A stretch of 35,153 nucleotides of DNA from a virus: positions 1 to 35,153 of the IMG/VR virus record IMGVR_UViG_3300046449_000213, one strand, 5' to 3'. This document shows, piece after piece, positions 10,432-20,038 of the stretch. Each line of letters starts with the position of its first letter. The stretch's first letter is position 1. The translations under genes and the position numbers were made by a program. The notes below the pieces were generated by a model. It was not told the DNA's origin. It saw only the letters and a list, made by a program, of their open reading frames with translations, and ran no database searches.

Positions 10432-10487
10432 TTATAACTAGCGCATAAACCGGACGCAAAAGAGCGCCGGTTATGCGGGTGTTATGT
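10432..10487 (-). other. attC-like site L1
   Basis: Read on the minus strand, it starts ACATAAC and ends GTTATAA. The arms ATAAC..CGCATAA.CCGG.CGC and GCG.CCGG.TTATGCG..GTTAT pair, with an unpaired 3-nt spacer and two extrahelical bases, the hallmark of attC hairpins. The stop codon of the 74-aa gene lies in the first core (TAA of ATAAC). There is no U-run as in a terminator. The stems match site R3 at 45 of 50 positions. Confidence 0.78.
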
Positions 10488-10706
10488 GTCTTGGTGCGTC
10501 ACAGGTTTATCGTCTTTAAATTGCAACTCATAAAGCACATCTTCTCTATAGCCTTCCTCAGAAATCCCTTTTTCGTACCCAGCTTGGTATGCGTAGCGCA
10601 TATCCTCTCTACTGAATTTGATATTAGCGGCAACGCCTTTCCCAAGTCCAACATAGTCATCAACCCACTTCAAAAAATCCGGCCACATTTCACTTAAATT
10701 TTTCAT
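10482..10706 (-). CDS. Cassette ORF, 74 aa, unknown
   Basis: The product (MKNLSEMWPDFLKWVDDYVG...) has a helix AANIKFSREDMRYAYQAGYE and an acidic-aromatic end. The motif REDMRYAYQAGYEKG resembles a segment common in phage small proteins. GAGGAAA lies about 5 nt before the ATG. It is enclosed by sites L2 (upstream) and L1 (its stop is inside L1), so it forms a single-gene cassette. Function unknown. Confidence 0.75.
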   Translation of the reverse strand: MKNLSEMWPDFLKWVDDYVGLGKGVAANIKFSREDMRYAYQAGYEKGISEEGYREDVLYELQFKDDKPVTHQDT

Positions 10707-10726
10707 AATATTTCCTCAAAATTCAC

Positions 10727-10789
10727 ACATAACAAATCTTTCAAAACGACCACCAAACAGCGGTGGCCTTTTAACTTTTGGTGTTATAT
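10727..10789 (-). other. attC-like site L2
   Basis: On the minus strand it runs from ATATAAC to GTTATGT. The outer box ATAACA/TGTTAT and inner box GxCCACC/GGTGGxC pair, separated by an unpaired region of about 12 nt per side, as in the R-box, spacer, L-box layout of attC. It follows the 42-aa gene stop directly and precedes the ribosome site of the 74-aa gene. Confidence 0.72.
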
Positions 10790-10917
10790 TACTGTTCGTC
10801 CATCCATGACTGCTCTGACTCGTAGTTTTCTATTTCAGAAAAATACGCTTCTCGCTTTTCCTCATCCGTCATGTCGTCGTCTTTATCAATCAGGTCGTAT
10901 AATCTATCTTTATTCAT
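10789..10917 (-). CDS. Cassette ORF, acidic 42-aa protein
   Basis: The frame from ATG (10917) to TAA (10789) encodes a strongly acidic helical peptide (MNKDRLYDLIDKDDDMTDEE...SEQSWMDEQ). GAGGG lies 7 nt before the ATG. It is the only gene between sites L3 and L2, with no other sequence, a typical minimal cassette. A DNA-mimic or anti-host role is possible for such an acidic protein but is speculative. Confidence 0.7.
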   Translation of the reverse strand: MNKDRLYDLIDKDDDMTDEEKREAYFSEIENYESEQSWMDEQ

Positions 10918-10928
10918 AGTTATCCCTC

Positions 10929-10990
10929 GTATAACAAGTCATCCAAAAAGAGCCGGAAAATCACCGGCCTGTTTAACTAGGGTGTTAGCA
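10929..10990 (-). other. attC-like site L3
   Basis: On the minus strand it runs from TGCTAAC to GTTATAC. The outer TAACA/TGTTA and the inner AGGCCGG/CCGGCTCT boxes pair, with one extrahelical base in the L box and an unpaired central spacer. It begins 3 nt after the stop of the 82-aa gene and ends just before the ribosome site of the 42-aa gene. Confidence 0.74.
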
Positions 10991-10993
10991 AGC

Positions 10994-11242
10994 CTACGCA
11001 TTGTCACGCAGGTATCGCGCTCTCTCTATGTATTCCTCGTCGGCTAAACCTGGCAGCCAGAACCGCTCTACATGCCCGTCTTCCAGCGTCACTATAATTT
11101 CGCCATCGGGCTCAAAACGCTCACAGGTTCTATCAACGGTCGGCTTGCTAACAACGAGTTCTACGGCGGACAAACCTGCCTCGCCGCATTCATCACACAT
11201 CCCACCGTAACCGCAAGTTCCGCCATCTTTTTTGCATTTCAT
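10994..11242 (-). CDS. Cassette ORF, zinc-ribbon-like protein, 82 aa
   Basis: The N-terminus MKCKKDGGTCGYGGMCDECG has four regularly placed Cys (3, 10, 16, 19), suggesting a zinc site; the rest is a small beta/helix domain (EIIVTLEDGHVERFW...YIERARYLRDNA). AGGA lies 6 nt before the ATG at 11242; an ATG at 11245 is possible but too close to the ribosome site. It lies between the degenerate site 11250-11280 and L3. Confidence 0.75.
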   Translation of the reverse strand: MKCKKDGGTCGYGGMCDECGEAGLSAVELVVSKPTVDRTCERFEPDGEIIVTLEDGHVERFWLPGLADEEYIERARYLRDNA

Positions 11243-11249
11243 CATCAAT

Positions 11250-11280
11250 CCTCGGTTTGCCCGTAAACGCTAGGTTAGGC
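11250..11280 (-). other. Degenerate or half attC-like site
   Basis: On the minus strand, GCCTAAC (11280-11274) overlaps the stop of the 107-aa gene and is followed by arms CCTAGCGTTT and AAACCGAGG around an ACGGGC loop. The expected closing GTTRRRY core is missing; the ribosome site of the next gene starts there instead. It may be a decayed or fused attC. Confidence 0.45.
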
Positions 11281-11598
11281 GTCTTGCATCTCAGCAAGCA
11301 CACTATCAACATTAGCCTCAACAGCCAATATACCTTCCATGATTGGCACAACTTCAAGAGGTCTATTTTTTCTTCTCCAGTCGGAAACGTACATCCATCC
11401 CTCTTCGTTGGCTGCAAATTCTAAGTACATGTCATCTTCGGTTGGGTCTGGGTACTTGAATGATATTGATACACCTGAGTAAGTCGGTTCATGTCTCTCT
11501 ACATACTCCCTATCAATAACACAGTTTTCTACATTCTCAGCAAACCATGTAATTTTGTGTGTGCAATCACAATGCTTGTTAACTCTTAAGTGTTCCAT
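11275..11598 (-). CDS. Cassette-type ORF, 107 aa, unknown
   Basis: The product has an N-terminal CDCTHKITWF segment and a beta-rich body with SGVSISFKYPD and an EEGWMYVSDWRRKN motif, ending in an acidic helix. GGAGAG lies 5 nt before the ATG at 11598. The gene is framed by GTTAGGC (11626-11620) and GCCTAAC (11280-11274), the canonical core sequences of integron cassettes. No family recognised. Confidence 0.75.
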   Translation of the reverse strand: MEHLRVNKHCDCTHKITWFAENVENCVIDREYVERHEPTYSGVSISFKYPDPTEDDMYLEFAANEEGWMYVSDWRRKNRPLEVVPIMEGILAVEANVDSVLAEMQDA

Positions 11599-11619
11599 CA
11601 ATCTCTCCTGTTCGTTCAC

Positions 11620-11626
11620 GCCTAAC
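11620..11626 (-). other. Canonical attC core (GTTAGGC), lone simple site
   Basis: GTTAGGC on the minus strand fits GTTRRRY, the point at which integron recombination occurs. It overlaps the end of the 83-aa gene (TAG stop is inside it). A full folded site is not visible upstream, because coding sequence lies there. It could be a secondary insertion point for the first cassette. Confidence 0.4.
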
Positions 11627-11873
11627 AAGGCTCATTAGATCGGTATAGCCTATTTCCATCTAATATCCCGAATGGCATTTGACCGCCGGCTAAAAAACCT
11701 TTTATAAGCATTACATCGTTTTCATTAATATGCAAAAAAGGCATACTGCTATTTTTGAATCTATTACTGACAGTCTCTTCGCTAAGCCACTCTATAAGCG
11801 GCTGAAGTTCGTATCTACATATTTCGCAATGGTTACTATCATTACTTTCTATGTTGCAAATGTAGCAGTCCAT
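11622..11873 (-). CDS. Small zinc-finger protein, 83 aa
   Basis: The N-terminus MDCYICNIESNDSNHCEICR has two CxxC pairs (Cys3/6 and Cys16/19), a zinc finger. The rest includes LQPLIEWLSEETVSNRF and a C-terminal GILDGNRLYR. The ribosome site is weak. It lies between the 64-aa gene and the first cassette core. Role unknown; a DNA/RNA-binding or protein-interaction role is likely by the finger. Confidence 0.72.
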   Translation of the reverse strand: MDCYICNIESNDSNHCEICRYELQPLIEWLSEETVSNRFKNSSMPFLHINENDVMLIKGFLAGGQMPFGILDGNRLYRSNEPC

Positions 11874-13987: not shown

Positions 13988-14026
13988 ACGTAAAGTTTTA
14001 TTTTTTCGCTTATTGCGTTGTTACAT

Positions 14027-14212
14027 TTACAGTAAGTCGTTATTCTTCAGCTTAATAATTTCATCCGGAGTAACGCCCTGCTTGATCAGTTCCAAAACTG
14101 GCGACTTGTTGACTTCTTCCTCAAAAGGTGTCATGTTCATCATGTATACAACGTTGCCGCTTCTATCTTTAATTTCACCTGTTGCTGCATTATATTCAAA
14201 TATAGCCTTCAT
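14027..14212 (-). CDS. Small early protein downstream of Cro-like gene, 61 aa
   Basis: The product is MKAIFEYNAATGEIKDRSGN..., with PVLELIKQGVTPDEIIKLKN at the C-terminus. GGAGAG lies 6 nt before the ATG at 14212, preferred over an upstream ATG at 14230. It occupies the position of a cII-like or regulatory gene but has no recognisable HTH. A TTACATTTA sequence lies just past its stop (14021-14029). Confidence 0.72.
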   Translation of the reverse strand: MKAIFEYNAATGEIKDRSGNVVYMMNMTPFEEEVNKSPVLELIKQGVTPDEIIKLKNNDLL

Positions 14213-14267
14213 ATTTCTCTCCGTTTTCATTTAAAAAATCGTTAGTTTTTATTAACCTTAATAGTTA

Positions 14268-14765: not shown

Positions 14766-14794
14766 TTGACAATGACCGAGCCTTATTTTATACT
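14766..14794 (+). promoter_or_regulatory. Strong rightward early promoter
   Basis: TTGACA (14766-14771), a 17-bp spacer and TATACT (14789-14794) form a near-consensus sigma70 promoter. The next gene on this strand starts 460 bp away, so it either drives a long leader or a separate RNA. It is divergent from the leftward promoter at 14675-14703. Confidence 0.85.
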
Positions 14795-18238: not shown

Positions 18239-18633
18239 AAGAGAATGAATGTCAATGGTGCGGAGGCCCCAAAACAATTCGCGAAGATGAAAGGCCCTGT
18301 ATATTCAGGATAAGGAAAACGTGTAGTCGTGAATGCAGAACTGCTTTAACAAATCACACAATGGCGAAGAAGCGAGCAGCCAATAAAATTGTAAAAAGAG
18401 TTGATATAAAGCCGCGAAGATGCCCAGAATGTGATAAACTATTTAGCATAAGAAAAAACGAAAGGGCCGATAGTTTTAAAAAATTGAAACGGTGCCCAGC
18501 TTGCACCGAAGAAAGAAACTCTACCAAGCCGTATAAATTGGAAGAAGTGTTATCAGTTTTAAAGAAGCGAGATAGGATGATGCAAATTGCAGTGCTTAGC
18601 CCGAAGATTGGGTTAATGCAATACATGAAATAA
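18235..18633 (+). CDS. Double zinc-finger protein, 132 aa
   Basis: Two Cys4 sites are visible: C6/C9 with C30/C34, and C63/C66 (RRCPECDKLF) with C87/C90 (RCPAC). The intervening region is basic (AKKRAANKIVKRVDIKPRR), which suits nucleic-acid binding. It overlaps recT by ATGA, so it may be a recombination accessory. Its stop codon lies inside the first core of attC-like site R1. Confidence 0.8.
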   Translation: MKENECQWCGGPKTIREDERPCIFRIRKTCSRECRTALTNHTMAKKRAANKIVKRVDIKPRRCPECDKLFSIRKNERADSFKKLKRCPACTEERNSTKPYKLEEVLSVLKKRDRMMQIAVLSPKIGLMQYMK

Positions 18634-18688
18634 CCTTTTTGTTAACGAGCGACGGCTTTATGTCGTCGCGTTGAACTGGTTGTTATGC
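18628..18688 (+). other. attC-like site R1
   Basis: It starts AAATAAC (TAA is the stop of the zinc-finger gene) and ends GTTATGC. ATAAC/GTTAT and AACG.CGACG/CGTCGCGTT pair, with a 9-nt unpaired spacer on each side and an AG extrahelical insertion. There is no U-run after it. It sets the upstream border of the rightward cassettes. Confidence 0.72.
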
Positions 18689-18717
18689 GCTTTTCTACAA
18701 ATAATTTAAAATAATGC

Positions 18718-18745
18718 TTGTATTCTTTAAATAGTTGTGTATAAT
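18718..18745 (+). promoter_or_regulatory. Cassette-internal promoter
   Basis: TTGTAT (18718-18723), 16 bp, and a perfect TATAAT (18740-18745) preceded by TGTG (extended -10). It stands between attC-like site R1 and the 55-aa gene, so the first cassette could be expressed independently. The 19-mer TATTCTTTAAATAGTTGTG within it recurs at 13328-13346 on the other strand. Confidence 0.7.
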
Positions 18746-18779
18746 TATTACATCAACTAGAGAAATGGAGCAAAACAAA

Positions 18780-18947
18780 ATGAAAAACCTAATTAGCCAG
18801 TTAAACAAAATCGCTAATAGCTCAAACGAAAGAGCGCGGCGCAACATCAAAAACCTTGTAGGGCGCATCGAGTGGTTTGAAGAGTGTGGTGACGAAGAAA
18901 AACTAAGCGAGTGTGTTGCAGAAGCAAGCTTGTGGGGTGCTAAGTAA
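18780..18947 (+). CDS. Cassette ORF, basic helical protein, 55 aa
   Basis: The product (MKNLISQLNKIANSSNERAR...) is helical and basic at first, then acidic (VGRIEWFEECGDEEKLSECV). GGAG lies about 9 nt before the ATG. It is the first gene after the cassette promoter and overlaps the next by TAATG. A toxin-antitoxin or defence function would fit the architecture but no known family is recognised. Confidence 0.72.
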   Translation: MKNLISQLNKIANSSNERARRNIKNLVGRIEWFEECGDEEKLSECVAEASLWGAK

Positions 18948-19171
18948 TGAGCGCGAGACAAGAAACAAAAAATGCTTGCCTTGACATATTTAGCAAGTTT
19001 CAAAAAAACTGGAGAGGTGAAGTAAGCGCGAAAGACGCGATTATTATAGCTAAAAATATGCAGCTAGCATCATTACAAAGAAAAATGAAAGAAGTCGAGA
19101 ATATTGATTTTGATGTTATGCAACGTCACGGCCTGATTGTTGATGGTGTGACTAAGGATTGCAAGCGTTGA
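18947..19171 (+). CDS. Cassette ORF, helical protein, 74 aa
   Basis: The product (MSARQETKNACLDIFSKFQK...) is helical, with IIIAKNMQLASLQRKMKEVE and a short end FDVMQRHGLIVDGVTKD. Its ATG shares a base with the preceding stop, and its TGA overlaps the following TTG start. The three genes are therefore co-translated. No family recognised. Confidence 0.72.
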   Translation: MSARQETKNACLDIFSKFQKNWRGEVSAKDAIIIAKNMQLASLQRKMKEVENIDFDVMQRHGLIVDGVTKDCKR

Positions 19172-19329
19172 CTCCCGCCCAGCAAGCCAAAAGCGTGGGG
19201 CTAAAAAGCCTTACGCAAGTTAGCCAGATAACCGGCGTATCACTAAACACGCTCACCAACTGGCACAGGAATAAGCCGGAGCTGTTTAGAATTGTGCTGC
19301 TTGGTTGTGTAGCTGAGATTGGCACATAA
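19168..19329 (+). CDS. Cassette ORF, small HTH protein with TTG start, 53 aa
   Basis: A frame beginning TTG ACT CCC, overlapping the previous stop as TTGA, encodes LTPAQQAKSVGLKSLTQVSQ followed by ITGVSLNTLTNWHRNKPELF. This is a helix-turn-helix (QVSQITGVSLNTLTNW) with a short tail, RIVLLGC. Proteins of this kind occur in phages and integron cassettes, from memory. The stop codon lies within the first core of site R2. Confidence 0.75.
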   Translation: MTPAQQAKSVGLKSLTQVSQITGVSLNTLTNWHRNKPELFRIVLLGCVAEIGT

Positions 19330-19386
19330 CGGCGGAAGTGAGGGGCCGGCGACTTTTGCCGGTCGCTCTCGACTGAATTGTTATAT
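19324..19386 (+). other. attC-like site R2
   Basis: It starts ACATAAC and ends GTTATAT, 63 bp. ATAAC/GTTAT and GAG...CGAC/GTCGCTC boxes pair, with an asymmetric GGG/CCG stretch unpaired. The central GCCGGCGACTTTTGCCGG element closely resembles loops I know from environmental and chromosomal integron attC sites. The HTH gene stop is in the first core. Confidence 0.76.
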
Positions 19387-19406
19387 TTTTAATTTAAAGG
19401 TGATTT

Positions 19407-19640
19407 ATGAGTGTAAGTATTGGATGGAAAAAGAAAGACCCTAAGAAGCTAGACTACATTAGTGGAGGCTCGTCATTTTATAAGGTATTAGAAAACGCTT
19501 TTGGTGGATTTCCTATGGAATTAGACTATAGCCATATTAGTGTTCTGCGCGGTATAGAGGCTTGCAGTTTTGATGGCGCAAATGAGTTGATAGCAGCAAT
19601 TAGTGACAATGGTTGCATAGTAGTTGATGCAGAGTGGTAA
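19407..19640 (+). CDS. Cassette ORF, 77 aa, unknown
   Basis: The product (MSVSIGWKKKDPKKLDYISG...) looks like a small alpha/beta domain, with FYKVLENAFGGFPMELD and SFDGANELIAAISDNG. AAAGGTG lies 6 nt before the ATG. It is the only gene between sites R2 and R3, a standard single-gene cassette. No catalytic motif is evident. Confidence 0.76.
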   Translation: MSVSIGWKKKDPKKLDYISGGSSFYKVLENAFGGFPMELDYSHISVLRGIEACSFDGANELIAAISDNGCIVVDAEW

Positions 19641-19644
19641 AGAA

Positions 19645-19702
19645 ATATAACACCCGCGTAACCGGCGCGGTTTTTAGCGTCCGGTTCATGCGCTGGTTAG
19701 AA
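19645..19702 (+). other. attC-like site R3
   Basis: It starts ATATAAC and ends GTTAGAA. The arms pair as in site L1, including two extrahelical bases and a CGCATGA/CGCGTAA inner region. The stems are 45/50 identical to L1 in the leftward operon. It ends 18 bp before the ribosome site of the SSB-like gene. Confidence 0.78.
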
Positions 19703-19729: not shown

Positions 19730-20038
19730 ATGACAAATAAAATAGGTGTAAGCCTCAAGATTGATGTAAGCAAGATTGACAAAAAAAGATTGTTTGAAGG
19801 CACCAAGGGAACTTATTTAGACGCAACTGTTTTTATTGATATTAACAATGAAGATCAGTACGGCAATAACGGATTTATAGCTCAATCAGTTAGCAAAGAA
19901 GAGCGCGGACAAGGCGTTAAGGGCGCGATACTAGGTAACGTTAAAGTATTTTATAAAGACAATAGCGAGTCTCAACAAGGCGGTAATTTTAGCGATGCTC
20001 CTAAGCAGCCAGATGATGGCTTCGATGTGTCTTTCTGA
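19730..20038 (+). CDS. SSB-like phage protein, 102 aa
   Basis: The product begins MTNKIGVSLKIDVSKIDKKR, then GTKGTYLDATVFIDINNEDQ, YGNNGFIAQSVSKEE and a strand GAILGNVKVFYKDN. The C-terminus is short and acidic (PKQPDDGFDVSF), like the tip of single-strand DNA-binding proteins. Proteins of this kind are common next to RecT in phages and are thought to bind ssDNA. AAAAGG lies 7 nt before the ATG at 19730, preferred over an upstream start in the attC region. Confidence 0.78.
   Translation: MTNKIGVSLKIDVSKIDKKRLFEGTKGTYLDATVFIDINNEDQYGNNGFIAQSVSKEERGQGVKGAILGNVKVFYKDNSESQQGGNFSDAPKQPDDGFDVSF

Follow-up and report, generated by a model that had tools for sequence, protein, structure and literature searches.

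What are the paired intergenic segments in the early region of this phage, and do the small genes between them come and go as integron cassettes? The window, by which we mean the whole 35,153-base virus record analyzed here, has a terminal repeat of 120 bases and structural genes of podovirus type, in agreement with the first-pass annotation, which had called it a podophage from its sequence. Small minus-strand genes occupy 9 to 14.6 kb and a plus-strand operon occupies 15.3 to 20.0 kb (based on the list of open reading frames), and the phage encodes a RecT-like annealing protein. The divergent region contains a sigma-70-like promoter close to consensus at 14766 to 14794 on the plus strand (TTGACA-17-TATACT, 11/12 matches). 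The three segments that the annotation had singled out (10432 to 10487, 10727 to 10789, and 10929 to 10990) lie where it placed them, have TAAC...GTTA cores, and are flanked by small minus-strand ORFs. An Rfam scan of 9.5 to 12.5 kb gave no match.

The window was scanned on both strands, with filters off, using R1, a covariance model made by hand solely from class 1 integron attC sites (12 in all, 11 of them from annotated plasmid arrays and the other being the aadA1 site), with the variable stem trimmed; R1 differs from the published HattCI/IntegronFinder model, which has a 20-bit threshold. When the window was searched with its own array, an extra copy emerged at 19640 to 19702 on the other strand (84% identical), and two further sites were recognized on reading that operon. 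The annotation had overlooked the sites at 11146 to 11280 (+), 18628 to 18688 (-), 19324 to 19386 (-), and 19645 to 19702 (-), as well as a stem-less remnant at 11620 to 11640.

These features are listed below together with their state in relatives, which are IMG/VR phages 91 to 99% identical to the window, all of them metagenome assemblies, and include 3300031841_003411 (L003/L054) and 3300045789_000414 (L004/L053). Among the viral contigs searched, the anchor core also occurs in 3300031841_004254 (L145), 3300031841_004194 (L118/L162), and 3300045790_002272 (L171); another anchor is in 3300022934_001304 (L150), which has the stretch adjoining anchor E in common with the window.

10432 to 10487, plus strand: anchor attC A, cut at 10481/10482, R1 22.4 bits; retained in L004 and in L003/L054, the latter with an empty site
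10482 to 10783, plus strand (attC direction): cassette 1; missing in L003, substituted in L004, with breaks at the cut point
10482 to 10706, minus strand: cassette 1 gene, 74 aa, no assigned function; homologue (67% over 51 aa) beside an attC of L161, from an unrelated phage
10727 to 10789, plus strand: attC B of cassette 1, R1 19.4 bits; R'' CACATAAC complementary to cassette start GTTATGTG
10784 to 10984, plus strand: cassette 2, by cassette-end matching
10789 to 10917, minus strand: cassette 2 gene, 42 aa (ORF call)
10929 to 10990, plus strand: attC C of cassette 2, R1 8.9 bits (weak); an attC of L145 is 92% identical; terminator-like stem
10985 to 11274, plus strand: cassette 3; in L004 another cassette instead, up to 11274
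10994 to 11248, minus strand: cassette 3 gene, ~84 aa (ORF call), starting within its own attC
11146 to 11280, plus strand: attC D of cassette 3, long type; 10-nt match of R'' with its own cassette start; left-arm extrahelical C and A (by eye)
11275 to 11634, plus strand: cassette 4, common to L004/L053 at 97 to 99%
11275 to 11628, minus strand: cassette 4 gene, 117 aa, with the TTA of G^TTA as its stop codon
11620 to 11640, plus strand: stem-less attC remnant, R1 10.4 bits; then the phage flank TTAGATCGG, joined straight to anchor A in L003
14021 to 14264, no strand assigned: third variable locus; two cassettes in relatives, window copy without a clear attC
18628 to 18688, minus strand: attC G, R1 16.3 bits; its R' serves as the stop codon of the conserved gene upstream
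18634 to 19329, minus strand: cassette 2 of array 2; substituted in L054, L053, and L052
18735 to 18947, 18947 to 19171, and 19159 to 19329, plus strand: genes of cassette 2 of array 2 (ORF calls)
19324 to 19386, minus strand: attC F, R1 32.4 bits (E 9e-6), best in the window
19330 to 19650, minus strand: cassette 1 of array 2; ends complementary over 9 nt; substituted in relatives
19407 to 19640, plus strand: gene of cassette 1 of array 2 (ORF call)
19645 to 19702, minus strand: anchor attC E, 84% identical to anchor A, R1 20.4 bits; anchors also in L118, L145, L150, and L171

The five highest R1 scores in the window all belong to this system: sites A and B and the three sites of the second operon (18.63 to 19.70 kb). 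Three of these (19324 to 19386, 10432 to 10487, and 19645 to 19702) exceed 20 bits and two (10727 to 10789 and 18628 to 18688) lie at 16 to 19 bits, and the best match in the window outside the system reaches 12.3 bits. In the R1 alignments, the five sites have the attC core RYYYAAC...GTTRRRY, with L boxes inside it and bases that bulge from the left arm; matches in the window are strand asymmetric. As positive controls, the published phage attC clusters scored 29 to 37 bits (TJE1), 17 to 22 bits (H101, which is PH101 of PMC9892861), and 26 to 43 bits (ctTUS972), and the background was a single match in 768,582 bases of other phage DNA. A lone attC-like match of 23.6 bits is present at L069:2311-2378, in a phage whose portal protein is 52% related. 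All three segments fold as the annotation had described, with DNA z-scores of -4.8, -1.9, and -2.3 for the recombinogenic strand. Its claim that all three are attC sites is borne out by the model for 10432 to 10487 and 10727 to 10789; it is not for 10929 to 10990, since positions 10929 to 10989 score only 8.9 bits, below the best match outside the system. Site C therefore rests on R-box matching with its own cassette and on the 92% identical attC of L145, not on the model. The long site D gave no R1 match in the window scan; like site C, it is supported by R-box matching and by where the breaks fall. The remnant at 11620 to 11640 has R boxes without a stem, and this tail recurs in L006 with another R'' box.

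In integron cassettes, the first bases, just after G^TT, pair with the R'' box of the attC in the same cassette. Across 15 cassettes from the window and its relatives, the matching between cassette start and own R'' beyond the core sums to 76; permutations average 33 and peak at 66, so that 0 of 100,000 reach 76. In array 2, for example, GTTATATTT is matched with AAATATAAC. These 15 cassettes have the makeup of a gene plus an attC site with complementary ends, as expected of a unit that closes into a circle. The annotation had noted that each site follows a small ORF whose stop lies in or next to the first core. We rejected a pairing of each gene with the hairpin after its stop codon, because the breaks in relatives spare anchor A entirely and lie at the opposite end of it; each gene belongs instead to the attC that is transcriptionally upstream of it. 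The R1 strand and the left-arm bulged bases show that attC runs against the operon in each of the two arrays. A gene in the operon direction is likely in 14 of the 15 cassettes (12 of 15 by a longest-ORF rule) and is found in 4/4 cassettes of L145. In the plasmid controls, gene and attC are on one strand. Among the published phages, H101 and ctTUS972 have the reversed polarity and TJE1 does not. A Pfam search assigned no function to the cassette genes of the window.

Whole units are present, absent, or replaced among the relatives. In 3300031841_003411, anchor A is joined directly to TTAGATCGG, which is the window flank at 11635, so that the site is empty. In 3300045789_000414, a different cassette lies between the anchor A cut and the cut before TTAGGCG at 11274. 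At array 2 (18634 to 19650), L054 has three cassettes, L053 has one, and L052 has a short stretch; at the third locus (14021 to 14264), L054 and L053 have two cassettes each. Once shared letters are taken into account, L054 and L053/L004 have 12 breaks on G^TT; only 3.6 to 7.2% of the positions in these regions would lie 2 bases or less from a GTTR cut by chance. Movement of units with breaks at G^TT is seen in two phage lineages; the exceptions are L006, in which both breaks are off the cut, and L052, in which the left one is. Taken together with the R1 scores, the published-phage controls, the low background, and the cassette-end complementarity, this exact presence and absence in near-identical phages upholds the attC and cassette interpretation of the annotation, including its proposal that the genes at 10482 to 10706 and 10789 to 10917 are integron cassettes.

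The same comparisons revealed other differences. In L004 an IS605-type TnpB element (Cas12f1-like_TNB, OrfB_IS605) lies just outside anchor A (L004:640-1995, at window position ~10425). The 52.8-kb sequence L004/L053 matches the early region of the window (7.8 to 20.1 kb) at about 82 to 99% identity and outside it has no match to the window structural genes, so it is a mosaic with another module. The window has ~20 bases at 20010 to 20033 where L053:9678-10163 and L054:13076-13535 carry an HNH-like endonuclease gene (by eye); this gene is a homing-type insertion.

Anchors and cassettes are not confined to this phage group. L145, L118/L162, and L171 have no blastn similarity to the window beyond these sites. 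L171 and L162 are 95 to 98% identical where aligned, and at the anchor a single 413-bp cassette, inserted at the cut, sets them apart. The gene of this cassette and the second cassette gene in L145 share 93% identity. The L118 phage has the homologue of the window cassette 1 gene that adjoins an attC (L161). The presence of the same cassettes or genes in separate phages indicates that cassettes circulate among phages. Cassettes of the relatives encode N6_N4 DNA methyltransferases, and a phage-like contig (ERF, YqaJ) of a Paraglaciecola metagenome-assembled genome (MAG) contains a 63% relative of the L053 methyltransferase cassette, in which the cassette-end motif is the same. An array of about five cassettes, including one with an N6_N4 methyltransferase and with one attC of 45 bits, is present at L150:2225-4112. 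In an alignment of eight anchors, mean column identity is 86% and 97.9% of pair cells are kept. Three pairs are changed on both sides, and none are in slid controls; because all three changes come from one sequence, L052, this covariation is modest evidence for folding. L169 and L170 were considered as further anchors and rejected, since they are apparently inside tail genes and lack an attC.

One possible explanation is that the cassettes were captured once from host chromosomal integrons and are now passive, decaying relics. The lack of an integrase, the stem-less remnant, and the lack of assigned functions for the cassette genes are all consistent with this. However, the same anchors hold different cassettes in phages that are 91 to 99% identical elsewhere, which points to recent turnover, and unrelated backbones share a cassette, so we consider a single past capture unlikely. 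It is also quite improbable that homologous recombination between coinfecting phages shuffles these genes, with the conserved intergenic hairpins as shared landing sites. The RecT-like protein could serve such a process, and the anchors share ~58 bp across phages, but at the far-side breaks only the GTT core and a few bases are shared and the breaks are still on the cut, which so few positions in these regions approach by chance. Nor does homologous recombination predict the insertion of a single cassette at one anchor or the matched cassette ends. That the hairpins are terminators or RNA-processing sites between small genes, with a chance likeness to attC, is hardly credible: the site C stem (10951 to 10969, minus strand) is terminator-like in the gene direction and is followed by CTTTTT, and weak terminator activity is reported for attC sites (PMC9892861), but terminator-like matches in the region are scattered and near chance (10 versus 8.6 expected), a GC stem with a T run in the gene direction is not found site by site, most sites being uncovered in that direction, and R1 matches are strand asymmetric and cassette exchange is exact.

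We conclude that the phage very probably carries two, and probably three, integrase-free cassette clusters that are exchanged at G^TT by way of a host IntI. In two of the clusters, a phage-borne anchor attC marks the 3' end of a gene cluster. On infection of an integron-bearing host, the attC strand would fold as single-stranded DNA and be recombined at G^TT by the host IntI. Cassettes may then be inserted beside the anchor, excised, or traded with cassettes of coinfecting phages. Cassettes with the gene against the attC direction would be kept because the phage operon reads the inserted genes. If replication runs outward from the divergent region at ~15 kb, the recombinogenic strand would be on the lagging template in both arrays. 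GC skew in the window tracks transcription, and the replication origin therefore cannot be located by skew.

The catalyst is likely to be a host IntI acting in trans. A search for tyrosine recombinases (PF00589) gave no match in the window or in G001, G002, G011, and G012, and neither the window nor its close relatives have the intI of a complete integron, which leaves a host IntI to be assumed. The L145 phage encodes three tyrosine recombinases; these were rejected as IntI, as the best scores 65.8 bits where the cut-off is 265. In the Paraglaciecola MAG, three integrases lie above the IntI cut-off, which indicates that suitable hosts exist. The array gave no blastn match in 50,697 phage records, and the cassette proteins gave no tblastn match in phages. 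Against plasmids, the matches listed were only to generic methyltransferases with at most 54% identity, and none of the cassette proteins was found in 395 genomes of the order of the Paraglaciecola MAG, a weak negative because that search had no positive control. These plasmid and 395-genome searches revealed no bacterial integron holding these cassettes.

Stem-loop elements described with early promoters in T4-type phages have been proposed to mediate gene shuffling, and like them the window sites are hairpins between small phage genes at shuffling points; unlike them, the window sites have R and L boxes, extrahelical bases, and a fixed cut. The system shares its attC architecture, the G^TT cut, and cassettes of gene plus attC with mobile and sedentary chromosomal integrons, and differs from them in that it has no intI, its genes are reversed, and an attC anchor takes the place of attI as the entry point for cassettes. 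Having at least two close attC sites and no integron integrase nearby, it is a CALIN, not a complete integron. Phage CALINs (attC clusters lacking an integron integrase) have already been published (Qi et al. 2023, PMC9892861), and there 5 of the 6 virulent-phage attC sites assayed recombined with attI1 through IntI1. As described there, phage CALINs likewise have small cassettes and at least two attC sites, lack IntI, and include methyltransferase cassettes (which here are in relatives). In contrast to that description, the window anchor occurs in two operons and in phages of other backbones, and natural gain, loss, and an empty site are seen. The part of PMC9892861 used here does not note cassette polarity, although R1 indicates that in H101 and ctTUS972, as in the window, genes run against attC. 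Our search of the literature on phage integrons and attC sites turned up no comparable later report. What this analysis adds is natural gain and loss resolved to the base, one conserved anchor that recurs in several loci and backbones, a pool of shared cassettes, and the reversed polarity.

Earlier phage attC sites were isolated cases with laboratory recombination data. Natural empty and filled sites, together with a cassette shared by unrelated phages, make phages active partners in cassette traffic. The system provides a mechanism by which genes in small phage operons could be swapped with base precision, among them those of DNA methyltransferases, which may counter host restriction. With a defined anchor and cassettes, the system is directly testable, and the prediction is that a host IntI is needed. 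The conserved anchors at gene-cluster ends and the pool of phage-adapted cassettes with genes against attC may mean that this phage group keeps an integrase-free platform, a proposal that we regard as evenly balanced. If it is true, these phages would rely on the integrase of the host to trade genes rapidly with one another.
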